A stretch of DNA of 64,000 bases from Isoetes taiwanensis (Eukaryota > Streptophyta > Lycopodiopsida > Isoetales > Isoetaceae). The DNA lies in NCBI GenBank assembly GCA_021234155.1, contig JAJEKV010000093.1:434001-498000 (forward strand), written 5' to 3'. Positions within the stretch are counted from its first letter, which is position 1. Each line of letters opens with the position of its first letter. Made by a program: the position numbers and the translations under genes. The notes beneath the pieces were generated by a model. It did not search any database. It was not told the DNA's origin and saw only the letters and a program-made list of their open reading frames with translations. Shown one piece after another: positions 12,797 through 44,482 of the stretch.

Positions 12797-13796
12797 CACG
12801 GACTTAAGTCCGTGATCTTATTAAAAAAGGAGGAATAAGGTAAGCTCCACGGACTTAAGTCTGTGATCTTATTTAAAAATGAGAAATAAGCTCCACGGAC
12901 TTAAGTCCATGATCTTATTTTAAAATGAGGAATAACCCACCATATTGGCCACCTAATATACATAAACATTGGCCAATGTAAAAGCTCAAATGAGAAATAA
13001 GCTCCGCGGACTTAAGTACATGATCTTATTATGTATATATTAGGTGGCCAATATGGTGGGTTATTCTTCATTTTAAGATAAGATCATGGAGTCCGTGATC
13101 TTATCTTAAAATGAGGAATAACACACCATATTGGCCACCTAATATACGTAAACATTGGCCAATGTCAAAGCTCCACGGACTTAAGTCTGTGATCTGATTT
13201 TAGATGAGAAATAAATGAGGAATAACTTCCACGGACTTAAGTCTATGATCTCATTTAAAAATGAGGAATAAGTTTCACTAACTCCACGGACTCCATCTTA
13301 TTTTAACCTCCACGGACTTAAGTCTGTGATCTTATTTAAATGAAATTGAGGAATAACCTCCACGGACTTAATACGTGATCTTATTTAAGAAATAGGCAAT
13401 GACATTCACAGGCTTAAGTCCGTGATCTGAGGTCTGAGGTTATGTTCATGGACTTAAGTCCGTGATCTTAGTTAAAGAAGAAGAAAAACTTCCACGGACT
13501 TGCGTCTGTGATCTTATTCATAGAATCTAGAGTTATTGAACAATTTTATATAAGGCAGAAGAAAATCACGGACTTAAGTCCGTGACATTATTTAAGAAAA
13601 AAAGATGTCCATAGATATTCTTCAATATTACATAAATAAGAAAAACATCTATTTAGAGGCATAAATAAGAGTTCAACACTACATATAAAAAGAAGAATAT
13701 CCATGGAATATCCATGAACTTAAAATAATTCTTAATATCCATGAAGATAAATATTCTTAGTGATAAAGTAAAAAAGGAACACGGACTCGAGTCCGT
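12797..13796. repeat. Cluster of 18-bp palindromes (CACGGACTTAAGTCCGTG)
   Basis: Perfect or near-perfect copies start at about 12797, 12848, 12894, 13005, 13174, 13230, 13311, 13361, 13407, 13447, 13493 and 13567. A variant ACGGACTCGAGTCCGT lies at 13781. Most are followed by ATCTTATTT, spacing is irregular (40-170 bp), and intervening DNA is AT-rich and partly repeated. The consensus is a perfect palindrome. Single copies also occur at 2655 and 16303. The cluster lies in an intron-like gap of the composite gene, between 12705 and 13870. Confidence 0.9.
12914..13080. repeat. 50-bp inverted repeat inside the palindrome cluster
   Basis: Arms 12914-12963 and 13031-13080 are inverted copies containing AACCCACCATATTGGCC, at least 90% alike with a ~67-bp loop. 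A third, direct copy lies at about 13108-13160. One palindrome (13005) lies in the loop. Confidence 0.8.
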
Positions 13797-13866
13797 ATAG
13801 AAAAAATCAAATTATATAAGTCTGCAAGCAAACAAAAGCACAAGGACTATAATTTATCTCTTTGTC

Positions 13867-14200
13867 TGTATTGGTGGGTATTGGTGCTTGGCCACCTGCT
13901 TGGCCAGCCTTCAAAAGGTGTAATTATCTTTCCATTAGGTCTGTTAGCATTTTTAGAAATCCTTCTCAATGATGAAGGCCAATTATAGTTATAGACAATC
14001 TATCTATCAGTTACTTCTTAGTACAGTGGATACAATATGGTGCTTCCAGAGCCTGGTATCTCTATTGCTTTTCTCTTCTTGCTCTCCTTCAATTTGTCCG
14101 GCATCTTCTTGCTTATTGTAGAACATGGGCTTGCTACAATTTCTTCCATGACAGATTCTTGATGCTCATCCATGGCTATTGCATGGAATGTCGCATGCAA
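13867..14200 (-). pseudogene. Possible 5' exon(s) of composite gene
   Basis: On the minus strand an ATG-initiated stretch (14200-14018) encodes a polar, basic segment with KKMPDKLKESKKRKAIE, a nuclear-localisation-like run. A further coding-like stretch (about 13990-13867) reads NWPSSLRRISKNANRPNGKI. Both lie upstream of the ParB-like segment on the same strand, but no splice junction could be fixed and no domain is recognised. Confidence 0.3.
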
Positions 14201-14514
14201 AAGCTTTTCTCCCTGTTTCCTTGCTTCTTCTCTCCTCCGTGGATTCTAATTCAAAAAGCAATTCAAGAAAGCAGTTCAAGAAAAGCAATAAAAAAGCGGT
14301 GGTTTTTAATTAAGAAATAAACTAAGTTTCTAGTATTTTGTTAAAACATTAAATTTATTGGGGGGTTTGTTGGCAAGTATTATGCCGTATGGGGTATAGA
14401 CAGATGGATGGCCTAGATGAATGGCCTCTTTTGAATTCAAATTTGGTGGATTGTTTTGTTCTTGCATTGCATCTCTTGCAACTTTGAGCCTCTTCATTTT
14501 GCAAACGTCTTGAT

Positions 14515-15340: not shown

Positions 15341-15949
15341 AATAGAATTTGCTTAGAGAGCTTTGATTTCTTCAGCCCGTGGTTAAGTTTTCAAAACCCA
15401 TTCCTTTGCATGCTGTGTTAAGACAAACATCCCCAAGTGCAAACATGAGACTTGGAGCCCTCTTTCTTCTTTCTGTTCATGCTTGCTAAAAAGTCCTAAT
15501 TTGGAAGGGCTAAACGTGCCTTTGGCCAGTCAGAATTGTGTGAGAGAAGAAAGAGTATTCAATTGCATAAGAAGAAAGAGAGAAGTTCTGAGACTGACTT
15601 GCATGCCAAAATTTCTTACCGAGACTGACTGGACGGTATGGCAGCTTGCAGCTTTTTAAACGAGATTTCTTGAAATAAAATAATTTAAAGAAGAAGTTCC
15701 ATCACATAAAATCATTAGCTCTAATTGAGAAACATACTTTCTTCCTTGTTGGTATTCCGTATGGTGAGATATCCTGAGTCCTGAGGCAGGTGCAAAACTG
15801 TGATGGCGGCAAGACGAATATCCTCAAGCAGGTGCAAAATTGTTGATGGCAAACTGTTGATGGCGGAACTAGGCAAGGCGAGGGCACATCGAAAGGCTAG
15901 GCCAGACCAACTATTTTAAAACCATCTCCGTGGCATGCATGCCTGCACT

Positions 15950-16078
15950 AAAATTTGTTAAGCTATTTTTTCTCTTGCATGCTTTTTTAGTCCTTTTTTG
16001 TTTTGAATTTCTGCATGAAAATTTGGTAAGACACTTTTTCTCTTGCATGCTTTTTTAGTCTTTTTTGTTTTGAATTTT
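15950..16078. repeat. 66-bp direct tandem duplication
   Basis: Two copies of a T-rich unit containing TCTCTTGCATGCTTTTTTAG, about 66 bp apart. Non-coding. Confidence 0.8.
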
Positions 16079-16302
16079 ATAGAAATAGTAGGATGGTTGT
16101 AGTATGTTTTTAAATATATGCGTAGGCTTTTTATATCTTATATCCACTAGAATATAATCTAATGGTATAAATGTGGTTTTTATAGTTTTTACTGGAAATC
16201 ATAATCCATAGCTATGGGTAGCCCAGTTATGAATACTACGAAATGCTTGGACCCAGAGCCAGAGCCAGGTTAGTATTGTGTTATTTTTCATTCATGGACT
16301 TC

Positions 16303-16318
16303 ACGGACTTGAGTCCGT
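16303..16318. repeat. ACGGACTTGAGTCCGT palindrome
   Basis: A perfect 16-bp palindrome of the same family as the cluster at 12.8-13.8 kb. It lies just upstream of the transposase-like pseudogene. Confidence 0.8.
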
Positions 16319-16339
16319 TTGATATATATTTTTGCTTTT

Positions 16340-19265
16340 GCTGTAGAGTTTGAACTCTTGATAGAAGACAAAGTGGTTGCAAAGGGAGCAATCATAGCTA
16401 TACGAGGACTTCTCCACTCTAAAGAATTAGAAATGGGATGGGCAAAGGTAGCTCTAAAGATCGCCGTGCATGGGAGAGGCTGTAGGATCTTTTGTGGCAT
16501 GGTCTTTGAAAGACATAAAAAAAATAAACATCGTTAGTTCGTATTCTCTCTTTATATAAATCTCTCTTTTCTTAAATTTCTTATGAGATAACAAATTAGT
16601 TTGATATGGTATGCCTTATGTAGAAACAAAACACCAACGCAATACCAGGTGTAGTTCTTGAAGAGGATACAGTTGAAACTATTGAGGGGGATACAAGTCT
16701 TACTTCAAAAAGGACTGAGTGGAAGAACAAGAAGTTTAGATTAGTCCATTCATGTTCTGGAGAAACATTTGCAATTGCAATCATGTGTAATTGCGATCCT
16801 TTAGATGCAGTTGAAGATTTGCCACTTGGAGATGACACTGTCGGGGTTGCTATTACTCAGCTATTACCTAACTACAATTCAATGAGGCAGAGCAATGTGA
16901 GTAACAATTGTCGTGTATGCAAAGGCATGGTTGAGATTTCTACTCTGATGCGATGGCCAATAGAACATGTCCTTCATCTAAATGTAAGTACATTGGTTAG
17001 GGCCAATGTAGATAGTGAGCTTGTAGAACATTCTTTCTCTATGTCTCCAGAGAATGTTCTCTTATACAAGAAGAGGAAGGCTCACTTCTCGGTGAAGAAA
17101 GCAATAAAATAAAAATTTAAGAGAAAAGATGAGGGAGAAATATCTAACCCTAAGAAAAAATTGAAAAAAGCGGAACATATGTGTAACTGTTCGAAGGAGA
17201 TTGTTCAAGAAACAAGGGGAAGACCTTGTTGTCCTTCTTGGTGCACAGTTAAATTCTCAGTCGAAGAAATACAAAATATCAGGAAAAAGTTTTGGACCCA
17301 AACTTCGAGTGATAAAAAGAATATAATGTATTCTATGTTAGGATCTAGCATTAGAGATGCAAATACAGGTCACATGACATATCGGAAGAGAAGGGTATGC
17401 AGAGAAGCAGTGACATGGATGATTGGTTTTGCAGAGAGCACTTTCTATAGATACCACAATGAATATAGAGATGGTGCAAGAAAAGCAGTACATGGGAATA
17501 CATGTACTATCAAAACTAGGAGCAACACTATGATGGCAATTGAAGTGTTTGGTAACTTTGTTAAATACATGGCTGAATCAATGCCACACAAGACAAAATT
17601 AAATGAGTGGGAACAAAGAGGTGAAGCGTGTCTTGCCACCTCAATACATTCAAAAAGAGTGCTTACAAGAGGTCAACACTGTTCTAACACAAATAGGTGG
17701 ACAAGCAATCTCTCAGTCAGCTTTTAGCAGAATCTGGAATAAGCATTTTAGTGATGTGGTGGTGGCAAAGAATAATAGCTTTTCAAACTATAACACTTGC
17801 ATACAATTGCGAGAGGCTCTGAGAAGTACAATTGTACATGAGCAAAGAAATGCTTTGAGAAATGAGATGCATCGACATCAGAATGAGCAAACATCATGTA
17901 GGGCAATCTATTATCAGTGGAGGGTATTTTCTTCAATGGAACCCGATAGATATTTATGCATCATACATGATAAAATGGATCAACACAAAACTTTTTTGCC
18001 TAGATTGCAGCCAATCCCTAAAAGTTGTGCTAATGCACAACAGTTGAAGATCTCACTAGCAGGAATGTTGACCCATGGACACGGAATAGGTGTGTATGGT
18101 CATTTCTTATTAGATCTATGGGAAGATAGAACGAATTTTCATGTTGGCTCTATCTTCAAATGTCTCCAAAATATAGAAAGAGGTGTTACAAATGAGCAAA
18201 GCAGTAGCAATGCTTTGTTTGGGGCTCTTCTAAATGATGAGGCACATGTTGCAACTAAATAGATGGAAAAGAATGCAAAGTTTTCTGGAAGGGAATCAAT
18301 CACTTCGACAACTATAGATAAGACGTCTCATGGAGTAGTGGGGAGAAAGCTGCCCTTGCTTTGACAGGTCATTCCAAACCCTTACAATTCAAATTCTGGG
18401 TTAAAGAAGGTGTTCCTATAATGCAATGTAAGATGCGTTTGATAGATCAAGATTGGATCCTTATCAATGGATATGAAATGTGGAGAAGAGATAAAGATGG
18501 TAAGGTAATGATTCCTGAAGGCGAGCCTTTGTCACTCCCACCGTTCAAGAACACCAAAGATCACGAAGCATTGATGAGAGGACTTAAACAATTTATTAGC
18601 CATTGGCAAGACATTTACAACAACCAACACTGAGTGCAGCAAAGAAAGATTCTTTATAGAAGGTGATTATATATTGGGAGAAAGTGGGTGAGGCCTTGCA
18701 AAACATTGATGGAGGAGGACCCTTGAAAGATGGATTTCTTCCAATTTCTAGATGGGAGAAGAAATCCCTAGAACAAGTTGAGTTGAATGTTGGTACCTCG
18801 CAAAAAAGGAGCTTGGCTAATTGGCATGTTGGTAGCAAGTCTAGCATGCCCCAATGCCATGGCCTACCAGATTGGTCCCTTACAGAGGATGTGAAAAAGG
18901 GGTATTTTGTTCTCATTAAACCTGATAATCTAGATGTATATCCAGTTTGGTTAGGTGAGGTTAGATGTGTACCTACCAAGGATGATGATAAGCCCGGACT
19001 AGAAAACTATTGGATTGAAGTTCAATATTGGGCTCCAAAATGGAATATGAGGAAAAAGAAAAGGCCAAGTGAAAAGGAGGTTTATGAAAATTGTTGGGAC
19101 AAGACTTGGGTTTTGAATCATTCGGATCCGCCAAGGAAAGAAAAAGTAAGTTGTATTCTTTGGTCTTACGCACCACCAAGGGGAAAAGACATTACGTCCA
19201 TACGAGAACATAAGATTCCAAAAGTACACGCGAAGAAAGCAAAGTATAATTTAAGTTTAGGATGA
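16340..19265 (+). pseudogene. DDE-transposase-like gene, broken (resembles DUF7869-type family)
   Basis: Successive plus-strand pieces form one degenerate protein. 16340-16510 includes EFELLIEDKVVAKGAIIAI. After an AG at 16622-16623, 16624-17109 contains a CNCDPLDAVEDLP stretch. 17161-17640 has a Cys cluster (HMCNCSKEI…GRPCCPSWC) and a helical region. A frame change at ~17600-17650 leads to 17603-18262, with YLCIIHDKMDQHKTFLPRL (possible first acidic catalytic residue) and GHGIGVYGHFLLDLWEDRTN. A stop at 18262 and another frame lead to 18361-18633, then 18663-19265 with KKGYFVLIKPDNLDVYPVWL, an SH3/BAH-like strand pattern. Plant and animal relatives of this layout are transposase-derived. At least two frame changes and two stops indicate a dead copy. 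The family name is from memory of motif style. Confidence 0.5.
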
Positions 19266-23711: not shown

Positions 23712-23716
23712 ACCTC
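23712..23716. other. Target-site duplication ACCTC (left)
   Basis: ACCTC immediately precedes the retrotransposon's TGTGACG start. The identical ACCTC follows its last base at 33819-33823. Confidence 0.9.
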
Positions 23717-25692
23717 TGTGACGTTCCAAGTATTTATATGGTATACGTATAAATATATTGACACGTCACCCAGTATAGATACGCCACCATGGGGTATGGT
23801 AACCTAGGGGGTTGACTTAAAAGGGATTAAATTAGCTATGCTAATTTAATTATTAAGGATAATAACCTATAATTAAGGAACTCATATTTAAAAGGCATAA
23901 TTAAGTTAATTATGGTTTGGGAAGGCGCCAAGTGGCCACCATCGATTGGCTAACATGGTAATGCTAATTGAGACCAATAAGGTGGATCACCACCCCCATA
24001 TCAGCCACAATTCACCTTGAGCAGTGGAGTGCCACCCTTGTGACCAGAGCTGAGCGCCACCTTGAGCAGTTGGACGCCACCCTTGTGACCAGAGCTGAAC
24101 ACCAAGACCGAGAAGATGGAAATCCCCAATGATAACGGGTCCAGCAGAAACACATGTGGGTGGCTAGGGTAGTTGTGAATTCTAGGATAGCGCCCCTGTT
24201 GGGCACATGTTGGGTTGGTTGTCTGTTCTCTCTGTGTTTATACTCGTAGGAACTAACCCTTGATTGTAAAGGTAAGTTCATTCTCTTTATATTCTGATTC
24301 TGGGATTGCTTTCAAAGGATGGATTGTTAGTTTCTTTGCATAGTATTACTCTTGGAAATGGGGAATTCACGGGAGGGTAAAAGCATGTTAGGGTGTCCCT
24401 TAAAAAGTATTATTTAGTGACCAAAAAAGTACCTAAAAAGGTACCCAGGACTGGGTACTGGGTACTTGTGTAATATCTCAATAAAAGGTACATTCTAGAA
24501 CTTTTATATATATTTTGGTCTCCAGTAGCATTATCTTTATCTTAACTTTGAATATTAATGCGTCCTTGACTTTTATTTTGGACTTTTGTACTAGTTTTAA
24601 TGAAAATAAAAATGAGAAAGTACCCAGTTCTGAAGTACCTAGTGTATGTACTTTTGCAGGTTCCAAAAGTGGTACACCCTAACATGCTTTTACCCGGGAG
24701 GGTAGAGACCTCTGAGCCCATTTATTGTAGTATGCTCCTAGATAAAGCCCTGTATTATCCCATTAGATGCGGCCTGTGCACAAGAGCCCACCGGGTCATA
24801 GATGCTATGGACTGGCTTAGCACCAGACAAGGAACACAGTGGTGAAGTGGGGGTGGGGTCTTGCACGAACATAAAAGGCTCCTGAGACTCTACAGTGGGC
24901 TAGGCCTAATGGCCCGGCCCTACGAGCTAGGCTGGCCGGCGGGTATGGGTCCGACACTTCACGGTGCGAGAGGTGTGACCCGCATGGGGCATCTGTACTT
25001 TGAGTAGATTTAGGGTGAGTAAATTAAGTGCGAATCGCACGGGGGTCGCTTATGCGCACGCGTATTCTCTAGCTCACCCATGGAACCCTTGTGTTTACGG
25101 AAGGGGACGCTTCCGACCTGCCTCATCGGACCGAGGCTTCATGAACCTGGAGGTAGGCTCGGCGAGGGTGATGCCTCGAGCCTAGCGTCTCGAAGGCTAT
25201 AAGCGAAGCCATGGCGTGATTTCGACCCATCGCAAAGTGTGCAATGTGGGGGCGGATGGAGTGGACAACCCTAGCCCGATGTTCTATGCCGATAGCGCCC
25301 GGGTTATACCTCATGTCGCGCTGATCTCTTGAGGCGGAGCCGTCGATCTATCCTCGCGTGAGTCTACGAACGAGGGGTAGAACACGGGGTTTGGGGTGTT
25401 TTCTTAGGTTTAGATGCATATTCTTTGCCGTTGGTATTTGGATGGATGTGCCACCCCCCGTGGTGGTTATTTATATGTGATTTATCTTTGTGTGCTAACC
25501 CTTGTATTCACGCAGCGGCGTAGAAGCCCATTGAAGGCGTGGGCGAATGACCCCTCTGTGTCCTTCACTTGGCGTCTTATTATAGGCGGCCCGAGTTAGG
25601 CGGAGGGGCCACGCTTATGGCAAGTCGGTTGCCATGGGAGGAAAGTCCCGTATGTATCACGGTAGGGTCGTATATGTTCGAGGCGCCCGCCA
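23717..25692 (+). mobile_element. 5' LTR of Ty3/gypsy-type retrotransposon
   Basis: It starts TGTGACGTTCC and ends CA at 25692. The first ~600 bp match the 3' LTR (32149-33818) almost perfectly, showing a recent insertion. Without the 325-bp insertion (element plus duplicated target) at 24376-24700 its length is ~1.65 kb, comparable to the 1.67-kb 3' LTR. The GC-rich second half differs from the 3' LTR by clustered small indels. Confidence 0.9.
24376..24694. mobile_element. 319-bp TIR element inserted in the 5' LTR
   Basis: Terminal inverted repeats are perfect over about 21 bp (GGTAAAAGCATGTTAGGG…). It is flanked by CGGGAG on both sides (24370-24375, 24695-24700). The 3' LTR has the uninterrupted site with a single CGGGAG at 32804-32809, which proves insertion after the LTRs formed. 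It is non-coding. The 6-bp duplication is unusual, so the superfamily is open. Confidence 0.9.
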
Positions 25693-25694
25693 GA

Positions 25695-25706
25695 TGGTAT
25701 CGAGCC
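25695..25706 (+). other. Primer binding site, tRNA-iMet-like
   Basis: TGGTATCGAGCC begins 2 nt after the 5' LTR end. It matches the usual plant initiator-Met site TGGTATCAGAGC apart from a small deletion. Confidence 0.8.
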
Positions 25707-26401
25707 GTGATTTGGTTTTTCGAAATCATAGCACTGACTAAACCCTAACTCGCTAGTTCGGTAGTTAGGAGAGAGAGTTTAAGCAAGAGTGATTGTTTAA
25801 GTCTTTGATGTTTGGTTTGGTGCTAGGTTAATGTAATAGACTGTAAGTCCTTAAGAAGTCTGGGCCAACTGGAAGACCCAAGTTTCGAAGAGCTATAACT
25901 TTTTGTAGGTAGCTCGGATGAAGGCGAAAACGGCTTCAATGGATCGGGCACCTCTCAAATACCCTAGGGGGCACGTCTCCCGAGGTCAAAAAGACAACAG
26001 GCCGCCGAAAAATGAAAAGGGGCGCTGCTGTACTCAGAGGTGTTTCTTTTGAAAAATTAAAGCCGCATAAGCAACGCAGCGCCCCATACGGTCGCGCGTA
26101 TTTTTATACGCGCCCGTTTAAAAATTTTTATAAAAAAATTAATATTTTTTTTGAAAAATTTAATAAAAAAGTTAAAAGTTAAAATTTGAATTTTGAGATA
26201 TATTTTTGGACGTGTGCTTTCTCTGAGCGCCCTTTTCCGCCATAACCGCCGGACTTAAGCTCCAAACTCGCCATAGCTGACCTCCACGCCTCCCTTGCAT
26301 CTGCCCTACACCTCAGCGCCCTTACTTACTCCTTAGCGCCGTCCATCCTTGCCTGGGCGCCTCACCTTCCTCCTCCCTTGCTGTTCTTTGCTAGTACAAC
26401 C

Positions 26402-27026
26402 ATGTCGCGCTTTAAGCTAACCGTGGACTTGAAGAAGTTGAGCGTATTTCAGTTATTTGCCGCGCTAGTCGAGCATCTTGCCGACGAAGACCCTATGATA
26501 GATACTATTCTTGGTCTTTTCGTCAAGCACTTTGTCGAGGACCGAAGAGTCCCCTACCCTATCTTCCATTTCAACGAGCGCTTCCTTATCAAGTTGAATG
26601 AAGCCGATCAGGCCTACACTCTCGTGGAGCAGCCGGACCATGCATGGGCTGTGGTTAAGTTTTACCCTCGCCCGGGACGGATAGCGACCTGCCGAGCTTA
26701 TTCGAAATGAAGCCCAGAGGATCATGCATCTTGCGAGAGTGGAAGACTTGCAGCAGATAGCCAGTGCTCCACCGGACATAAGGATGGACCGCTTCTATTA
26801 CTTGGGAAAGGGCCGTATACTCACATACCAAGAATACTTTAATCTTCCTACCTTTTCTTGGAATGAAGGCCTACTTGACTTCATTTTTGAAAATGTTACG
26901 CCAAGGTTTAGCCAATGCCACGGAATCCATCCAAGAAGACATGCGAACACACCGCCGGACCGGTACCATCTTGAGATTGCCCGGCGCGATACAAATGCGT
27001 CCCGGATAAAGAGGCGAGGGGGCTAA
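26402..27026 (+). CDS. Retrotransposon extra ORF, N-terminal part (unknown; may join histone-H3 part)
   Basis: An ATG at 26402 follows a ~700-bp leader after the PBS. The frame encodes a compact, mostly helical-looking segment (MSRFKLTVDLKKLSVFQLF…, LADEDPMIDTILGLFVKHFV), stops at 26710, and continues in a neighbouring frame at 26724-27026 (MDRFYYLGKGRILTYQEYF, FSWNEGLLDFIFENVTPRF). No gag, zinc-knuckle or protease motif is visible and the family is not recognised. The following 27030-27245 is basic and G-rich with broken frames. This ORF may originally have run into the histone-H3 frame at 27246. Confidence 0.45.
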
Positions 27027-27245
27027 GAGAGAGGCGGCTCAAAAGGAAGGGGAGGACCTTCATAGCCAGCCAGGCGAGAACCGGCAGGTGGATCAACAAG
27101 CAGAACCCCGATGTTGACCCAGCGGGACCTAAAAGGGCGGGCGAGCGTTAACCCCGGGAAACCCGGACATGCGGCGGCGTGAACCATCCGGCAGACCCAC
27201 GGGGAACCCCAAAGAAGAAGCGATGGGGGGCGGGGTAACCGAACA

Positions 27246-27713
27246 TTGAAGAGAAAGAAAACCAAACCCGTGAAGAGTGGGGTGCACTATAAGACCCGAC
27301 TGCAGCAGGATGCAACCATTGCTAAGAAGACATCGGCTCAGAGACGGGAGCACATCGTCCAGCGGACAAAGCATCCTTTGACAGGCGGCAAATCCATTCC
27401 GTCGCTTAAGGCGACCCTCAAGCCGCGGAAGCCCCATAGGTATCGACCCGGCACGGTAGCTCTTCGAGAGATACGTAAGTATCAGAAGACTACCGAGCCA
27501 TTGATCCGCCGGCTTCCCTTCCAGCGGCTTGTACGGGAGATCACCCAGGACTTCAAAACCGACCTAAGGTTTCAAGCTTTTGCGGTCCTCGCCTTACAGG
27601 AGGCTGCCGAGGCTTATCTCATTGAACTTTTGAGCGACGCCAACCTTTGCGCCATACACGCAAAGAGGGTCACTATTATGCCCAAGGACCTTCACTTGGC
27701 ACGAAGGATCTGA
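27246..27713 (+). CDS. Histone H3-like protein encoded inside the LTR retrotransposon
   Basis: A 155-codon ATG frame encodes a complete histone-H3 fold after an aberrant N-terminal tail. From about residue 65 it reads [20 protein letters not shown], then [20 protein letters not shown] (alpha-1 and loop 1), then [15 protein letters not shown] (alpha-2) and [20 protein letters not shown] followed by RRI and TGA. Loop 1 has the canonical H3 length, unlike CENH3. The tail keeps RTK and TGGK, as around H3 K4 and K14, but is rearranged and preceded by ~45 extra K/R-rich residues. The usual last residues after RRI are missing. Core substitutions are conservative, implying past selection. It lies between the PBS and the integrase remnant, in the element's sense direction. 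AT-rich DNA with a poly-A run follows. Confidence 0.9.
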
Positions 27714-27926
27714 GGGGATTTTAGATGATTAGGCGACCGTCTTTTTCCCTTGTAAAAATTTTTGTAACTTATCCATGTACTAGTCCCGTTTTGGGGGTTA
27801 TGAATATAAAAAAAAAAATGACTTTCTTTTTTTCCTTTTCGAAAAAAAAAGTAATAATGAAAATAAACATATTATTAATTAAATAATAATTAATAACAAT
27901 AACTTTGGGAAAACGTGCCCAAAAAG

Positions 27927-27933
27927 TATAAAA
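27927..27933 (+). promoter_or_regulatory. TATA-like box upstream of the 28012 frame
   Basis: TATAAAA lies 79 bp before the ATG at 28012, after ~200 bp of AT-rich spacer. It is a possible internal promoter for the next extra ORF; position and sequence are the only support. Confidence 0.3.
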
Positions 27934-28011
27934 CCCCTTTTTGGCCATTAGAGTTTCATTTTCCCTTCTTGCTTCTGCGCCTCCTTTCTCCTCCTTTGCG
28001 CCTTCACCCCT

Positions 28012-29397
28012 CATGGGCCGCCCAACATTGCAGCAGTGGTATTTGGACGGAGAGCATTGGGACCCTGCGGTTCCCTTTGATCTTCTTCACCCCTACCTGC
28101 TTCAGCAGGTAGATCTTATCTCCAACATGCAGGCTCATCCAGATTATGCTGTTTTCCTTAGTTCTATTGTGAGGAGATTGTACCTGCATGCGTTTACAAT
28201 GAAGACGATGAGCAGCTCTATCTTGACTTTCATACCCTGCACCAGATGTTAGGGGGTGATGAGCATGGCCGCAACGTCATCAAAGGCATCAGACGGCGAG
28301 GGACCGACCTCCCTATAGTTACAATAGATCGGGAAACTTGTTTTGAGGCCCGATTTGCACTGGCCATTATCATGGACCAGTACATAGAGAATGAGGAGAT
28401 TCCTGCTGAGCATTCTTCTACGCCTCTACCTCGACCTGGGAAGATGGCGAAGTCGTCGTGGCGCAGGATTTTTTGTAGGTGGAAGGAACTTGCCACGAAG
28501 CCCCCTGCCGGCCGACGAAAGCCCTCAAGCTCGAAGGGTTAAACCTTTTTCCTGCCGTACTCTTGAATAACCAAGAGTACCTGATCTTTGAGGATATTAT
28601 GTGGGCCTACTGGCGTTCTTCTGGGATCCGCCCGTTAAGAAAATAGAGATTCTCTATGATCTTGCGGAGTATTACAAAAGATGACTTCATTGACTTCACC
28701 ACGGTTGTGCAACCCGCACAAGTAGAGAGCCTATTGGCATATCGGCCCGGGAGAGCAAGAGCCGTTGAGACTCTTACGTCGCCGCCCAGTTCTTCTTGAA
28801 AGTGACACACCCGACCTCGGAAGAAGCGGTTTGCGGCCCGGTCGGCCTTCTCTCTCGGATCCGCCTTTGCAAATCACCATGGGAGAGGTGGATCAGGGCC
28901 GAGGAAGACCTTTGGGACACCAAGGTCAGCCTTAAGGATGACATGGAAGAAGAAGAGGAGGAGAAGCTTCCCACCAACTTCTGAGGAAAGAACCAGGAGA
29001 CCTCCACAGGCCACCAGTTAGGGCAATGGGGAACCATGTGGCCCGATTCTTTCTCTCGACCTTCCGCCAAGGAGAGGTGCTATTTTTCTCCAAGAACCTT
29101 GGGCCTTCTTACGAAGCTTCTTGATGGGCTCAGAGCCATATCCACTTCACGGGCCATAAGAAGATTGACTATCACGTCACCACCATTACTTTGGTCCGTA
29201 GAGATTTGGCTATAGCAGCATTGGGGGATGTGGCGGGCTGCGCTAACATGCGCCTCCTTGTGGCGGCACCTTTGGCTACTTGCTTACCCCCTGAGGCAGC
29301 AGCTCGAGCCGCCCTCTCTGCTAGCCCTAGCGCCGCTTTGATGCGTTACCGTCCACCTCCTCAGCCAATGGACGAAGACGAGGGACCTAGCTCCTAA
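28012..29397 (+). pseudogene. Retrotransposon extra ORF, unknown protein, frame-broken
   Basis: It starts MGRPTLQQWYLDGEHWDPAV and reads PFDLLHPYLLQQVDLI. Near 28170-28190 it shifts to the frame holding QLYLDFHTLHQMLGGDEHGR and RETCFEARFALAIIMDQYIE, which ends at 28542. Further coding-like pieces continue in shifting frames (29030-29100 FFLSTFRQGEVLFFSKN; 29150-29397 ending RPPPQPMDEDEGPSS). Not recognised as gag or pol. Several frame changes fall in GC-rich stretches. Confidence 0.35.
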
Positions 29398-29569
29398 GCA
29401 ATTGTATTATGTATTTTGCATTTGAAATAGCTGTAAAATTTTCATTGGCAATGTCTTAAGCCATGGTTATCACTCGTGATGAGTATCCTTTATGATTACT
29501 GTCTATTGTATCAATTCAATACATAATGCCAATATAAATTTGAATAATTCTCTTCCATGACGAGTCGTT

Positions 29570-30037
29570 ATGCCTCCTGGAATTGTTTGCACTATATACT
29601 CATTCCGCCGTTTTGCAGAAGAAACACTAGAGGAGTACGAAGAGAGGATCACAGACCAGATATTGAGGGATGACCAAGGACCTCCTGAACAAGATTACGG
29701 CCAAAGATACGGCGAGTATCCGGAACGAGAAAGTGACGATGAGATAGAGGAACCTGCAGAGCCAGAAGAACCTTATGACCCAGACAAGGGGATGGAAATA
29801 GTTACCCTCCTCCGGGAACGGGCTTTCGACGACCTGAAATGGACCCTTTGCCGCACTTGGGACTATTGGAATATGTCCAGACATGAAGCCTTCGAGGATG
29901 CCAATGACCACCTGTGGCAAATCTTCTACGCTCTAAGGAGGCTTTTCAATCTCCTCATTATTAGCCCCACTTGGGATTATCAACCCGTTATCATCCAGGC
30001 TTGGGCACGTTACAAGCTCGTCAGAGCTGTACGTTAG
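29570..30037 (+). CDS. Retrotransposon extra ORF, acidic unknown protein (155 aa)
   Basis: An intact ATG frame. Residues 15-75 are strongly acidic (ESDDEIEEPAEPEEPYDPD). The C-terminal half is aromatic-rich and probably helical (LKWTLCRTWDYWNMSRHEAF, LWQIFYALRRLFNLL). No known family was recognised. It lies between other extra ORFs, in the sense direction of the element. Confidence 0.5.
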   Translation: MPPGIVCTIYSFRRFAEETLEEYEERITDQILRDDQGPPEQDYGQRYGEYPERESDDEIEEPAEPEEPYDPDKGMEIVTLLRERAFDDLKWTLCRTWDYWNMSRHEAFEDANDHLWQIFYALRRLFNLLIISPTWDYQPVIIQAWARYKLVRAVR

Positions 30038-30344
30038 AGTGTGCGCTATTCGGTCATGTATTCCTTTGCAAACCCCTAAGCCGGATCTTCCAGTTTTGTG
30101 TTCCTATGCTTCAGTATGACCAAGGAAGTGGCCTGTATCAGGTCCACTTATATGTATTATATAACTATAAGCTTATAACTAATTTCAGTGTGAAGATTTC
30201 CAATGTAACAGTTACTTCGCTTATAATTAAAATCTTCAATCGTTTTTCGTGTTCACTTTGTTTTCTCGACACTACCTAAAATGATCTTGCTGTGAGACTT
30301 AATGTTACTGCAATTTTGCTTATATCGTCTTATGTTTAATATAG

Positions 30345-30688
30345 ACGGCGCACGCAACGCCGCCTGGCAGACACCCTCAAACGCCAGTCGGTTAACACCC
30401 GAACAAGAATTGATGTTGATGAAAAGACAGCTAGGCGAGTTACAGGCCTATGTGTTGCATGCTAACCCACCACAGCATGTACAAGAAGACGGACCGGAGT
30501 TACCTCCGTTGCCGCCTAGTCCACCTACACAGCAGCCGTCCCCACCAGAAACTAGCCCTGTACCTGCGCAAAAGAGGCCCCAGTCTAAACGCCGACGGAG
30601 TTCCTCTAAAGGCAGTGCCACCTCCTCGGAATCTGCCACTTCAATGTCGTCTGAGTCGTCCGCCTCATCCAGACCAAGCTTGCTATGA
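30345..30688 (+). CDS. Retrotransposon extra ORF with Pro/Ser-rich tail, truncated by integrase junction
   Basis: The frame reads RLTPEQELMLMKRQLGELQA (coiled-coil-like), a proline-rich linker, a basic QKRPQSKRRRSSSKG patch, then an SSES-type serine run. It runs out of frame exactly where integrase coding sequence begins (~30668-30675). The start codon is uncertain because the open frame reaches back to 30302. Not recognised. Confidence 0.4.
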
Positions 30689-31566
30689 GCACCGCATATC
30701 ATCCTCAGACGGATGGTCAGACAGAGCGTACCAATCGTATTATAGAGGATATGCTACAAAGTTATGTGTGGAGTAAGCAATCCCAATGGGCTGACTATAT
30801 TTATCTAGTTGAGTTTGCCTATAACAGTATGAAACAGGAGTCTATGTCTCCCTTCATGATAAATTATGGTTATCAATGCCTAACTCCCGACACATGGCAT
30901 AACCCCGTTTCCAAAGTGGAGGTTTCTCAGCAACTCCTCTTGGAAATGCAAGCTCTCGTTGAAGAAGTTCGTGGGTACTTACTAGCGGCACGCAGTCGTC
31001 AAAAGAGTGTTGCAGATAAGCACAGAACCCCACGAGTCTTCCAGGTGGGTGAATCAGTTTGGCTTAAGATTAAAGTAAAACAAGCCAAGCTTAAGATTGG
31101 TAACTGCAAGAAATTGGCACCCAGATGGGCTGGGCCGTTCAAGATCATTGAACGTGTTGGGGAACAGGCATATCGCCTCGATTTGCCACCCCGCTTGAAG
31201 ATCCACAAGGTCTTTCATGTGAGTCTTCTAAAACAGCACACCCCAGATCCAGACGAGATCTTGGATACACCCACCCTACTTGAAATGACAGAAGAGCAAT
31301 TGAATATAGTGCCTGAAGCTCTTCTTGATCGAGCATATAAGCAGACTCGAAGGACCCAGCTGCTGCAATACTTGGTCAAGTGGAAACACTTGCCAGTGGA
31401 GGATGCTACGTGGATGATGGAAACAGACCTTGAGAAACACTATCCGGACTTCATGCGCGAATCTCAAGGCCGCACCATCAACGATGCTATCAACCCCGCT
31501 CCCGGCGGTAAGCCTGAAGGCTTGATTCGCCGAGAATCAGGCAGTAGAAGGGTAGATGCATCGTAG
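30676..31566 (+). CDS. Ty3/gypsy integrase C-terminal part plus chromodomain (partial)
   Basis: The frame enters at the integrase core motif KLAMSTAYHPQTDGQTERTN, typical of plant chromovirus-type elements. It continues through the conserved GYQCLTPDT region, the GPF.I-type C-terminal domain (RWAGPFKIIERVGEQAYRL), LHKVFHVSLLK-like (IHKVFHVSLLKQHTPDP) and a chromodomain (LLQYLVKWKHLPVEDATWMM). The zinc-binding HHCC and first catalytic Asp residues are missing because upstream pol is absent. Such integrases insert retroviral-type cDNA, and the chromodomain steers site choice. This copy cannot be active alone. Confidence 0.92.
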   Translation, partial: KLAMSTAYHPQTDGQTERTNRIIEDMLQSYVWSKQSQWADYIYLVEFAYNSMKQESMSPFMINYGYQCLTPDTWHNPVSKVEVSQQLLLEMQALVEEVRGYLLAARSRQKSVADKHRTPRVFQVGESVWLKIKVKQAKLKIGNCKKLAPRWAGPFKIIERVGEQAYRLDLPPRLKIHKVFHVSLLKQHTPDPDEILDTPTLLEMTEEQLNIVPEALLDRAYKQTRRTQLLQYLVKWKHLPVEDATWMMETDLEKHYPDFMRESQGRTINDAINPAPGGKPEGLIRRESGSRRVDAS

Positions 31567-32135: not shown

Positions 32136-32148
32136 AAGGAGGGGAGAA
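32136..32148 (+). other. Polypurine tract
   Basis: AAGGAGGGGAGAA lies directly before the 3' LTR start at 32149, the standard plus-strand primer position. Confidence 0.85.
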
Positions 32149-33818
32149 TGTGACGTTCCAAGTATTTATACGGTATACGTATAAATATATTGACACGTCA
32201 CCCAGTATAGATACGCCACCATGGGGTATGGTAACCTAGGGGGTTGACTTAAAAGGGATTAAATTAGCTATGCTAATTTAATTATTAAGGATAATAACCT
32301 ATAATTAAGGAACTCATATTTAAAAGGCATAATTAAGTTAATTATGGTTTGGGAAGGCGCCACGTGGCCACCATCGATTGGCTAACATGGTAATGCTAAT
32401 TGAGACCAATAAGGTGGATCACCACCCCCTATTAGCCACAATTCACCTTGAGCAGTGGAGCGCCACCCTTGTGACCAGAGCTGAGCGCCACCTTGAGCAG
32501 TTGGACGCCACCCTTGTGACCAGAGCTGAACACCAAGACCGAGAAGATGGAAATCCCCAATGATAGCCGGGTCCGGCCAGAAACACGGGTGGGTGGCTAG
32601 GGTAGTTGTGAATTCTAGGATAAGCCCTGTTGGGCACATGTTGGGTTGGTTAATCCGTTTTCTCTACGTGTTTATACTCGTAGGAACTAACCCTTGATTG
32701 TAAAGGTAAGTTCGTTCTCTTTATATTTTGATTCTGGGATTGCTTTCAAAGGATGGATTGTTAGTTCCTTTGCATAGTATTACTCTTGGAAATGGGGAAT
32801 TCACGGGAGGGTAGAGACCTCTCGAGCCCATTTATTGTAGTATGCTCCTAGATAAAGCCCAGTATTATCCCATTAGATGCGGCACTGTGCACAAGAGCCC
32901 TAGGGTCATAGATGATATGGGTGGCTTAGCACCCGGACAAAGGAACAGTGGTGAAGTGGGGGTGGGGTCTTGCCACGAACATAAAAGGCTCTCGAGAGAC
33001 TCTGATTGGGCTAGGCCTAATATGGCCGAGCCCCGTGAGGGCTAGCCTTGGGCCGGGCGGGTATGGGTCTCGACACTTCACCGGTCTGAGAGGTGTGACC
33101 GCATGGGGCATCTGTACTTTAGTAGATTTAGGGTGAGTAAGTCGAATGCGAATGCGGGGGGTGCCGATGCGGCACGTATTCTCTAGCTCACCCATGGAAC
33201 CCATGTGATTACGGAAGGGGACGCTTCCACGACCGCCTCATCGGACCCAGGGGCTTCATGAACCACGGGTAGGCTCGGCGAGGGGGTGATGCCTCGAGCC
33301 TGCGTCTCGTGGAAGGCTATAAGCGAAGCCATGGCGTGGCTTCGACCCATCGCAAAGTGTGCACGGGGAGGGGCGGATGGAGTGGACAACCCTAGCCCGA
33401 TGTTCTATGCCCGATACGCCGGGTTATACCTCCGTCTGGCGATCTCTTGAGGCCGAGCCGCCGATCTATCCTCCTCCGTGAGTGCGAGCAGGGGTAGAAC
33501 ACGGGGTTTGGGGTGTTTTCTTAGGTTTAGATGTATATTCTTTTTGCCGTTGGTATTTGGATGGATGTGCCACCCTTCGTGGTGGTTATTTATATGTGAT
33601 TTATGCTGTGTGCTAACCCTTGTATTCACGCTTCCGCGACATAGGCGCCCATTGAAGGCGTGGGCCGAATGACCCCTCTGTGTCCTTCACTTGAGCGTCT
33701 TATTATAGACGGCCCGAGTTAGACGGAGGGCCCTGCTTATGGCAAGTCGGTTGCCATGGGAGGGGAAAGTCCCCGTATGTATACGACCGAGGGTCGTATA
33801 TGTTCAGGGAGCGTCACA
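32149..33818 (+). mobile_element. 3' LTR of Ty3/gypsy-type retrotransposon
   Basis: It begins TGTGACG, ends CGTCACA (inverted termini) and is followed by the target duplication ACCTC. The stretch 31567-32135 between integrase and PPT holds no gene. At 32804-32809 it keeps the empty site of the element inserted in the 5' LTR. Confidence 0.92.
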
Positions 33819-34481
33819 ACCTCAAAATCAAACACCACCTCTGCCAAACCACACAACACCTGCTGAAGCGAAACACAAGCACAAGAAGGAAGAGGACTTA
33901 AAAGACAAAACGAAATCATATTTCTTGCCTATGGCGGAAATCGAACATGCTTTTGGCTATGGCAGAAGGAAGGATGTCGGATTCTGCATCTGTGCCCTCT
34001 GTGCCCTGAACCCTCCCAGATTCACTCCATATTTACTGCTGCCAGAATCGATTTCAAGACGCCGGTTGCCTCTGAACCCTGCAGAATAACTCCGCCATGG
34101 CCAAGCAGCCGCCCACGGAAGAACTCCGCCATGCCCTGCCCTAACGCCCAAATTCGACACGAATCCCACTTTCCTAATACAGAAAGGAAAAAAAATGGCA
34201 CACCTTATAAAACCCACACCACATTTACTGACATCAGCATAATACTATTTTGGCATACGAATACACCCTTAAACCATGCACAATCATATGTAATACCACA
34301 CCCAAACAACATTTTGGGAACTTAAAAGGGATTTTGAGGGCACTTTGAAGGTTTCTGAAGGAATCTTAGGGAATATAAAGGGAATTTAGGGGAATCTCAA
34401 AGAATCCGAGGAATCATGGAGCATCTAAGAAGTAGAAACGCGCATTTTTTCTTCAACACCGGAGCTAAATCTTGTATAAGA

Positions 34482-36063
34482 CTAGTAACGGTGCCCAGCG
34501 TTGCTGGGCAAAAATTGGGTGTTCCATGTGAAAAAATGGGTTTTCCGCTTCCCTTTTCCTTTCAACTTTCCATTCCCTTTTCATACTTTCCCCACCCTTT
34601 TGCTTTGCGATGTTCCCTTTTTCCCTTTCCTTTCTCTTTCCCCTTCCTTTACATTTTCCCTTTCCCGTTCCCTTTCCCTTTTCATATGCCTCTTTCCATT
34701 CCCTTTTCTCAACCTTTTTTATACCCTTTTTCCTTCTTTCCCCATCCTCTTCCCCCTTTTCCCCTTTCCACTTTCTCCTTTCTTGTTTCTTTTTTCTTTT
34801 CTCTTTCCCATACTCTTTTTCCCTTTCTTTTTTCTATTTCCTCACCCTTTCCCTCTTCCCTTTTTTCTCGTGCCCTTTTCTCCTTCCTCTTTTCCTCTTT
34901 TCCTATTCCTTGCTCCCTACCCTTTGTCTATTCTACTTTCCCCCACCCTTTTCCTCCTTTTTCCATCCTTTCCCTCTTCCTTTTTCTCGATGCTCTTTTT
35001 GCTTCCATTTTTCTCTTTCTTCACCCTTTCTCTCTTCCCTTTTTTTCACGCCCTTTCATTTTTTCTTTTTTTCTCGTTCCCTTTTCCCAAGTTCTCTTTT
35101 TCCCTTTTCCCCCTCTCTTTTCCTTTTTACTTTTCTTTTTCCCATGGACTTTGCAACCTTTTCTTATTTTCCCTTACCTTTTTCTCCTTTTCTCACCCTT
35201 ACTTCTTACCCTTCTCGCGGTGCCCTTTTTCCTTTCCCTTTCCCCCTCGCCTATTCTATTCCTTTTTCTATTTCCTTTTATCTTTCCATTTTTCCTTTTC
35301 TCCTTCTCTTTCCTTTTTCCTCTTACCTTTCTTTTATTCCTTTTCCCTTTTCGCTTTTCCCTTTCATCGTTTTTCCTTTTCCCTTCCCCTTTTCCGTTTC
35401 CCTTTTCGCTTTTCCCTTTCATCGTTTTTCCTTTTCCCTTCCCCTTTTTCTTTTCCCTTTTCCCTTTCATTGTTTTTCCTTTTCCCTTCCCCTTTTTCTT
35501 TTCCCTTTTCCCTTTCATCGTTTTTCCTTTTCCCTTCCCCTTTTCCTTTTCCCTTTTCCCTTTTCCCTTTCATTGTTTTTCCTTTTTCCTTTTCCCTTTT
35601 CCCTTTTCCCTTTCATCGTTTTTCCTTTTCCCTTCCCCTTTTCCTTTTCCCTTTTTCTCTTTCATCGTTTTCCTTTTCCTTTTCCTTTTCCCTTTTCCCT
35701 TTTTTTCCTTTTTCATCGTTTTTCCTTTTCCCTTTCCCTTTTCCTTTTCCTTTTCCCTTTTCCCTTTCATCGTTTTTCCTTTTCCCTTCCCCTTTTCCTT
35801 TTTCCCTTTTCCCTTTTCCCTTTCCCCTTTCCCCTTTTCCTTTTTCCTTTTCCTTTTTCTTTTTCTTTTTCCTTTTTCCTTTCATATTGATGCCATAGTC
35901 AAGATGAAATTTTAGTTGAAGACACGCACACATCATCTCCACCATTGGTCAATCAAATCCTCGACCGTCCGATTTAGGGCTCCATTGAAGACACACGCTA
36001 TAACATTATAATATAAGATATGTTATAAAGATAAGATTAAGTTAAGATAGTTTATAACTGAGA
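34482..36063 (-). mobile_element. Small non-autonomous Helitron (1.58 kb) filled with polypyrimidine DNA
   Basis: On the minus strand the 3' end reads hairpin TGCCCAGCAACGCTGGGCA, a 6-nt spacer, CTAG (34482-34485), then host T. This is the same architecture as the Helitron ending at 10950. The proposed 5' end is TCTCAGTTATAAAC at 36063 preceded by host A. The 3' end is well supported; the 5' end is less certain. No gene is inside, and the long open frames here are low-complexity artefacts. Confidence 0.6.
34536..35886. repeat. 1.35-kb polypyrimidine tract with ~50-bp minisatellite
   Basis: The plus strand is almost only C and T (CCCTTTTCC-type runs). From 35340 to 35880 it becomes a minisatellite of about nine ~48-55 bp units marked by TTTCATCGTTTTTCC (35362, 35417, 35465, 35513, 35568, 35611, 35660, 35711, 35766). 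Phe/Ser/Pro-rich frames up to ~500 codons are consequences of composition, not genes. Long mirror-like homopurine/homopyrimidine DNA can form triplexes. Confidence 0.95.
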
Positions 36064-43500: not shown

Positions 43501-44482
43501 CCTTGTTGCCTTACCTAGCTTATTTCGTTTTGTTCAATGGTACAAATTCCCGGCGCGTTTTTGGAGTTCTTTTATTCGTTTTCCGACATTTTACGATTGG
43601 GGGACTCAATGAATAAGGAACGTTTTCAAACCTGGAAGTTCGTATTCTCAATAAGCATGAGGGCGCCCCAACCTCAGCCTTGATACCGTAACAGGGTCTT
43701 CAAGGTGAGGACATGGCCATGGCTATTGCCATGGGAACGTGCTCTAAAACTAAAATTAAGAAACTAGGAATGGATTAGCTTCAAGATGCCAGCGTGCATT
43801 CTTGAGCTTATTTTGAGCTTTGTCCATCAAGGGAAGAAAATGGGGCTAGAAATCGAGTCCAGGGATCAGGTGTTTACGGACAATTTGCCTATGGTGTTTT
43901 ACGGGCGTCGAAACACCCAATGCTCTGGAAGTGGTGTTTACGGCCAAAAAGTGGTATTTCGGCCAAAACCAAGCCAAAAACTAGCGGCGGAGCCAAAATC
44001 TTTGGTCGGATCCTTCTTACAGCTCCCTGGACGGCTTGAAATGCTTCAAAAGCCCTTCCAATCGCTTTGTCTTCCTCTTTAACACTAGTTTGATGAAGAG
44101 AGGAAGTGATTTGAGCTTCGAGATAGATGGGATCAAGCAAAAAATGACACAAAACAGATTGATTACGGGCTTAAAAACTGTGAAGTGCGATGGTTGATAA
44201 CGGTGGCCAGAAACACCACAAAAAAAGTCCGGAAACACCACATCCCGGACTCGATTTACGGGCGCCCAAGAAAATGCAGTAAATACGTTAACTTGAAAAT
44301 TCAAAACATAGGGATATATCCCCCCTTTAGCGTTTGAACTTTCGTCTACGTTACTTTTGTGCTCAACGTGTCTTTTCAAGTATGCATTGATCAGCTTGGA
44401 GATCAGTTTAATGGAAATTGGCCAGGTGATTTCTAACATATGTCGTTAGTTGTTCCTCTAATCAATTCTGGGCTCATGCTTG
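43501..44482. other. No gene recognised
   Basis: Intergenic sequence upstream of the PPR gene. No conserved frame, repeat or clear promoter motif was seen. An in-frame TAA at 44459 marks the 5' limit of the PPR reading frame. Confidence 0.5.

Follow-up and report, generated by a model that had tools for sequence, protein, structure and literature searches.

Histone H3 genes carried by mobile elements have been described in fungi, where hAT transposons bear them in Pyrenophora tritici-repentis and in Pseudocercospora fijiensis and its relatives; in the passages devoted to these elements the copies are almost identical (Pyrenophora) or inactivated by repeat-induced point mutation (Pseudocercospora) (PMC6710886, PMC3538342). 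Among plants, the closest parallel in logic, judged by analogy, is the orchid Ty3/gypsy lineage Gypsy_Pa_2799, which captured an enzymatically active AlkB-type m6A RNA demethylase and, in the account given of it, kept this host-type domain as an extra open reading frame (ORF) through its diversification (PMC9289625). Here we describe a long terminal repeat (LTR) retrotransposon of Isoetes taiwanensis in which the first ORF ends in a histone H3 domain. It was found in a stretch of 64,000 nucleotides, hereafter the window, comprising positions 434,001 to 498,000 of the forward strand of contig JAJEKV010000093.1 (assembly GCA_021234155.1).

The likeness to the fungal elements lies in a mobile element carrying histone H3; the Isoetes element differs in being a plant LTR retrotransposon, in the fusion of its H3 to another domain and in long-term purifying selection. 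Assignment to the hAT-borne class (DNA transposons with terminal inverted repeats and a hAT transposase) is excluded, the carrier being an LTR retrotransposon. The orchid lineage differs in its cargo, an RNA demethylase, and is an angiosperm element likened to the Tat/Ogre group; a histone is not among the domains named in section 12 of that paper, which reports 15 uncommon domains detected in 121 angiosperm genomes (PMC9289625). Family-conserved extra ORFs are also found in other plant LTR elements (Grande, RIRE2, Retand, env-like), more often between pol and the 3' LTR, and the antisense ones are described as having no clear similarity to known proteins (PMC7264820). ORF1 of the Isoetes element lies instead 5' of gag, in sense orientation, and encodes a core histone chimera. 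With plant chromoviruses (Tcn1, Galadriel, Tekay, Reina) the element shares the gag-pol order, a chromodomain, a primer-binding site (PBS) and a 5-bp target-site duplication (TSD); three further ORFs, which separate the 5' LTR from gag, set it apart from them. We file it as a Ty3/gypsy chromovirus LTR retrotransposon, among whose accessory ORFs the H3 gene represents a new kind. In the titles and abstracts listed by searches of an open-licence (CC) PMC library, we found no description of a retrotransposon-encoded histone. Nor do two reviews of plant LTR elements name one in their available text: PMC12786077 refers there to host histones only, and the word is absent from that of PMC7264820.

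The H3 chimera and its recurrence in the genome

The sense-strand frame at 27183 to 27713 of the window matches a solved histone H3 without gaps over approximately residues 52 to 155 of its protein, P0001 (E value of 6.5e-49), and the Pfam family Histone (1.4e-42), confirming the conserved H3 fold that the initial annotation of this DNA had recognized by eye. The single-sequence structure prediction was poor (mean pLDDT of 55), and the fold is assigned by sequence alone. Sequence and Pfam matches divide the frame into a basic pre-tail, an H3-like tail and the histone core (27429 to 27710, plus strand). There is no ATG ahead of the core in the frame of this copy, which makes up the 3' portion of a longer, broken ORF starting at the ATG at 26402. 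A protein search with residues 1 to 90 of the frame gave eight candidates, none of them a relative. The window copy stops early, after the residues LARRI, and the clipped C terminus that the initial annotation had taken as a property of this H3 turned out to be an exception in the family: among the first 30 loci, 26 continue to RRIRG(D/E)(F/L)R, two stop early (the window and locus L008) and two end otherwise.

What the initial annotation had not seen is that the protein is a chimera, with the H3 as one of its domains. Three fuller copies of the element were read as native contig stretches (L031 with L032 on contig C908, L033 with L034, and L035 with L036), and all have the order ORF1(H3)-ORF2-ORF3-gag-pol. 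ORF1 encodes about 420 to 460 amino acids in fuller copies (about 440 to 450 in these three), with an orphan N-terminal domain (N-domain) of about 200 residues, an acidic and Gln-rich linker, a basic tail and, as the final ~100 residues, the H3 fold. Compared with a set of 5.8 billion proteins, the N-domain gave 848 candidates, none at an E value of 1 or lower. A search for long proteins containing an H3 domain returned 4544 matches; the best 120 (60 to 81% identity), none labelled Isoetes, resemble plant and animal gene models of H3, either ordinary or joined.

The genome contains many copies of this H3. When it was searched with the window frame, the best 150 of 8689 candidates had identities of 81 to 100% (the latter being the window itself), and by hand count 121 of these 150 scored matches are free of stops, with a longest open frame of 485 amino acids. 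A canonical H3 query gave, among the best 150 of 9031 candidates, 15 host-like genes (97 to 99% identity over positions 1 to 136) and 135 H3-like matches at 72 to 87%. On contigs up to C967, no position in one of these two lists lay within 1.5 kb of a position in the other, and four of the 135 matches, read as core pieces only, form a second group with a different tail (group 2, the window belonging to group 1). A 32-mer from the group-1 H3, with up to 3 mismatches, had 204 sites in the genome and a group-2 32-mer had 545, with 0 for the control in both cases; together they give 749 element-type H3 sites, with membership in an element shown for part of them. The patterns do not cross-match: a minimum of 7 mismatches separates the group-2 pattern from each of 50 group-1 sequences, and likewise the group-1 pattern from each of the sequences tested from group 2 (four) and from the host (two).

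Recurrence at the same position, on which the initial annotation had staked its interpretation, was found by a search with ORF2 only (best 150 of 3887 candidates). All 30 loci fetched show H3 similarity about 270 to 320 bp upstream of the ORF2 match, and in 20 the core is open and has the motif expected; several of the 30 are copies already in the H3-found set. A 35-mer of the reverse transcriptase (RT) common to the three fuller copies had 1367 sites (control, 0). Spacing between H3 and RT was evaluated with 100 of these RT sites and with the H3 sites on contigs up to C967, positions being copied by hand: an RT lies 2.5 to 5.5 kb downstream on the same strand at at least 14 of 39 group-1 H3 sites (controls 0, 0 and 0) and at least 12 of 79 group-2 sites (controls 0, 1 and 0). 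Since an RT of this lineage is found downstream of group-2 sites, group 2 also appears to be carried by such an element. The spacings fall into two classes, of about 4.3 to 5.5 kb and about 2.5 to 3.5 kb (pairs on C201, C712, C907, C908, C941 and C952), and the shorter may correspond to elements without ORF2 and ORF3.

Selection on the chimera and origin of its H3

To evaluate selection, pairwise ratios of nonsynonymous to synonymous divergence (dN/dS) were calculated from Nei-Gojobori counts with Jukes-Cantor correction, and they are given as medians of the pairs with a proportion of synonymous differences (pS) between 0.05 and 0.70. For 29 loci (the first 30 minus one of differing length), the ratio was 0.083 for the whole frame and 0.044 for the H3 core (389 of 406 pairs used). 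Along ORF1, eight copies with this ORF open gave 0.073 for the N-domain, 0.309 for the linker, 0.118 for the pre-tail, 0.085 for the tail and 0.037 for the core (28 of 28 pairs). The corresponding values were 0.108 (145 of 253 pairs), 0.269, 0.132, 0.136 and 0.041 (251 of 253 pairs) in 23 copies with a recognized ORF1 start; these comprise seven of the first 30 loci, the copy on C1047 and 15 of 20 picked rows with open frames of 417 to 485 amino acids, the other five being dropped because the start was not recognized. Within ORF1 the core always has the lowest ratio, and the acidic and Gln-rich linker evolves fastest. The 20 ORF2-anchored copies, a set chosen independently of H3 (10 of the 30 were omitted because an open core with the motif expected was not found), gave a core median of 0.050 (188 of 190 pairs). 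For the first 200 codons of ORF2 the median was 0.113 (29 copies).

Differences in the H3 core amount to 0.051, 0.007 and 0.212 at the three codon positions. The pooled core ratio of nonsynonymous to synonymous proportions (pN/pS) was 0.067, whereas 10,000 neutral simulations with 25 substitutions never went below 0.18. Choosing similar or open copies lowers the dN/dS values, yet not enough to give the observed ratio under neutrality. With core medians of 0.04 to 0.05, far below 1, the conservation noticed at the outset does reflect selection, and the substitution pattern indicates that the core is held under long-term purifying selection. An isolated host pseudogene with neutral dN/dS, the outcome against which the initial annotation had set its own proposal, is ruled out by this ratio and by the recurrence. 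We are nearly certain that the element encodes a real, selected H3 chimera.

For the origin of this H3, we compared 22 of the 23 ORF1 copies of group 1, four group-2 sequences and two host genes, a sample without CENH3. Core proteins differ by 15% between group 1 and host, 12% between group 2 and host and 14% between the two groups, the element cores being on average 85 to 88% identical to the two host genes. Silent differences between the sets, in the range of 0.80 to 0.94, are near saturation, and the pS of group 1 and group 2 against the host genes was 0.89 and 0.94, respectively. An IQ-TREE phylogeny separated host, group 1 and group 2 (support of 100, 93 and 100); being an unrooted tree of three clusters, it does not decide between the possible sister pairs. 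K36R, H87F, V89I, T107A and I124L, all absent from both host genes, are majority states in group 1 as well as group 2, and the basic extension ahead of the core is similar in the two by eye. Near-saturated silent change together with these shared derived residues speaks for a single, ancient capture of a host-type H3 rather than repeated recapture; the two groups are diverged. Of the placement in an H3/CENH3 tree that had been suggested, the H3 half was realized: the element sequences are H3-like and cluster apart from the two host genes, in a tree from which CENH3 was left out. CENH3 typically has a divergent core and a longer loop 1. Such an identity is disfavored by the ungapped match to canonical H3 and by the 85 to 88% identity to the host genes.

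The carrier element and the rest of the window

Pfam identified Ty3_capsid, Retrotrans_gag, protease and RT in the frames of L031, with a CCHC knuckle below the cut-off, and RT, RNase H, integrase, SH3_Tf2-1 and Chromo (2.4e-08) in those of L036, giving the order of gag, protease, RT, RNase H and integrase of Ty3/gypsy elements; gag-pol of L033/L034 was assigned from ORFs and shared 30-mers only. LTRs with TG...CA ends, a 5-bp TSD, a PBS and a polypurine tract (PPT) are present in the window and C930 copies. Group I chromodomains, which bind H3K9me, have a cage of three aromatic residues. In the chromodomain of the element, the first and third aromatics of the cage seem to be missing when the unaligned sequence is read by eye, which would match the group II chromodomains as characterized in PMC3350952.

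The fuller copies vary in structure. The one on C930 has a matching LTR pair and a GTGAC duplication, and that on C1047 has approximately 3.5 kb extra between ORF3 and gag. The C908 copy (C908:23023053-23041052) is flanked by another pair of LTRs, different in type and diverged (joined coordinates 1 to 2345 and 15662 to 18000), and a window-type LTR stretch lies inside it at about 12888 to 14334; we propose a nested insertion or a template-switch recombinant. ORF2, of about 450 amino acids, is a single open frame in L031 and broken in the other two, and ORF3 (~160 amino acids) was found in L031 and L033. Neither matched a Pfam family. They are conserved orphan proteins (28014 to 30037 in the window; L031, L033 and L035). 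A second diverged histone fold, suspected by eye in the C terminus of ORF2, was rejected, as Pfam gave nothing and PDB only two annexin rows (E values of 0.66 to 0.68), and the PDB rows relating ORF3 to poxvirus entry-fusion proteins (E values of 0.09 to 0.2) were taken as chance.

The window copy is a decayed, internally deleted derivative of a Ty3/gypsy chromodomain LTR element. Its LTRs are two direct repeats, both starting with TGTGACG, recognized by repeat comparison and reading: the 5' LTR at 23717 to 25692 (3' end approximate) and the 3' LTR at 32149 to 33818, which reads TGTGACG...GCGTCACA. All features of the element are on the plus strand except the TSD, to which no strand applies; this duplication, ACCTC, was read directly at 23712 to 23716 and 33819 to 33823. 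A decayed PBS, TGGTATCGAGCC, was read at 25695 to 25706, where the C908 and C1047 copies have TGGTATCAGAGC(C), a type that we take to be that of the initiator methionine (iMet) tRNA. The PPT (32136 to 32148, by reading) is identical in three other copies. The Kimura two-parameter (K2P) distance between the LTRs is 0.034 for their first 660 bp and 0.088 for the full length, with 38 gap openings, and from this increase and these gaps the second half of the alignment may contain assembly errors. Frame breaks across copies are possibly also in part assembly errors.

Between the LTRs, the ORF1 N-domain is split into a first part (26402 to 26707), after which the frame breaks, and a second (26685 to 27026) that shares the H3 frame; both were assigned by eye against ORF1 of other copies, supported by DNA-level similarity of 26286 to 30669 to the C908 copy. 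Comparison with other copies identified downstream of the H3 frame the remnants of ORF2 (28014 to 29397), an orphan protein of ~450 to 500 amino acids elsewhere in the family, and ORF3 (29561 to 30037), an orphan of ~160 amino acids; ORF1 and ORF2 are frame-broken here. The start of gag (30296 to 30688, by comparison with fuller copies) is truncated at about 30666 by a deletion of approximately 3.5 kb that runs from inside gag to inside integrase, with a short shared CATC at the jump. The integrase C terminus follows at 30655 to 31566, with an SH3-like domain and a chromodomain (SH3_Tf2-1, 2.2e-22; Chromo, 2.6e-09). Missing are the gag C terminus, protease, RT, RNase H and most of integrase. 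The structurally complete element of the initial annotation thus holds for the LTRs, TSD, decayed PBS and PPT, and fails for the coding part, which lacks most of pol.

Neither Rfam nor a tRNA scan gave a match anywhere in the window. Outside the element, a tandem array from 48707 to the window end at 64000 consists of units of ~2.44 to 2.47 kb, mostly 94 to 98% alike and without an Rfam match. An uninterrupted frame at 44462 to 47452 encodes a pentatricopeptide-repeat protein of 996 amino acids (PPR_2, E value of 2.3e-102). A pyrimidine-rich low-complexity tract (34359 to 35915) contains long ORFs in several frames, and the frame at 1932 to 2468 on the minus strand has an NLI-interacting-factor-like phosphatase domain (Pfam NIF, 5.1e-15).

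What the element H3 may do

The tail and the core of the element H3 have fared differently. None of the 23 copies has in its tail the ARK motif that holds K9 and K27. Arg occupies position 36 in 22 of them (Gln in L047) and in all four group-2 cores. Pieces resembling an H3 tail remain in group 1 (RTK, TGGK), with RTKH or RAKH in 22 of the 23 copies and GGK in all of them; a canonical N-terminal tail with K4, K9, K14, K27 and K36 was not found in the element H3, the main silencing and PRC2 sites of which are gone. The 75 residues preceding the core carry a net charge of +11 to +19 in the 23 copies. In the core, the host residue is the majority at 83 of 99 positions, 64 of which are invariant. 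All 23 copies retain R49, K56, K79, R83, K115, R116, K122, D123, L126 and R129, and H113 and C110 (22 of 23) and R63 (21 of 23) are kept in nearly all, with altered residues clustering at 57 to 64, 86 to 89 and 101 to 107. The retained residues are presumably the H3-H3', H4 and DNA contact sites, and on this basis the domain should still be able to pair with H4 and wrap DNA.

Of the possible mechanisms, we tentatively favor an anti-silencing one as the most likely. If expressed, the chimera would pair through its H3 domain with host H4, and the pair would enter nucleosomes or tetrasomes that form on the DNA of the element itself and at its target chromatin, leaving the N-domain exposed. H3K9 and H3K27 silencing would act poorly on chromatin of this kind, to the benefit of the element, a proposal suggested by the tail without K9 and K27 and the Arg that mostly occupies position 36. 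A stronger form, which we consider doubtful, is that the lineage encodes an "unsilenceable" chimeric H3, deposited with host H4 on element chromatin and devoid of the K9, K27 and K36 methylation sites, a silencing-resistant state written by the element itself as a counter-defense at the nucleosome level.

Several observations weigh against an anti-silencing role. Unless cleavage frees it, the H3 tail lies within the polypeptide, and position 36 varies, being Gln in L047 and Trp in L003. Group-2 tails are unlike an H3 tail, and for that reason K9 and K27 may have been lost incidentally, when the tail was replaced, rather than through selected evasion. Purifying selection fits tethering or packaging as well as it does anti-silencing. 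Finally, by hand count 29 of the 150 scored H3 matches contain a stop and gag-pol is not one open frame in any of the three fuller copies, from which it follows that a large share of the family is decayed.

A chromatin tether is possible, though on balance we think it unlikely. The H3 domain would here enter host chromatin with H4 and chaperones while the N-domain anchors the particle, the RNA or the pre-integration complex and directs nuclear import or integration, possibly jointly with the chromodomain of the integrase. Purifying selection on the N-domain in both the 8-copy and the 23-copy sets, the fast evolution of the linker and the chromodomain of the element all agree with this, but a tether predicts no specific loss of tail modification sites, and the N-domain has no sequence relative in Pfam or among the 5.8 billion proteins. 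Viral histones and nucleocapsids condense or protect nucleic acid, and the chimera, perhaps with host H4, could similarly condense element RNA or cDNA in particles or shield the cDNA. Such packaging, which we regard as improbable, would suit the strongly basic tail and the retained basic residues of the core; however, the element already encodes a gag with a CCHC knuckle, and the whole histone fold is conserved beyond the needs of nucleic-acid condensation.

Passive hitch-hiking, a chance host H3 copied into one element and amplified without function, has a precedent in the fungal hAT transposons, which amplify H3 and include inactivated copies in Pseudocercospora in the sections describing them (PMC6710886, PMC3538342). 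It is very hard to sustain here, where silent sites differ by ~31 to 45% on average between copies and the core protein remains at least 88% identical, where 0 of the 10,000 neutral simulations reach the observed pooled ratio, and where group 2 also keeps a stop-free H3 core (four copies read). That host genes maintain the H3 likeness, through gene conversion or by being captured again and again, is just as implausible, given silent sites near-saturated against the two host genes and derived residues common to both groups and absent from the host (2 of the 15 host-like genes compared).

Hundreds of element-type H3 sites, against the 15 full-length host-like genes seen, are striking whatever the mechanism, and they are relevant to histone annotation and to the interpretation of chromatin data in Isoetes. 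Plant retrotransposons are silenced largely by DNA methylation and histone H3 marks. If the anti-silencing role is true, an H3 of the element's own, without the lysines that are marked, would be a direct counter-move to host silencing, and it raises a general and testable question, namely, whether a mobile element can change the very histone with which its host silences it.
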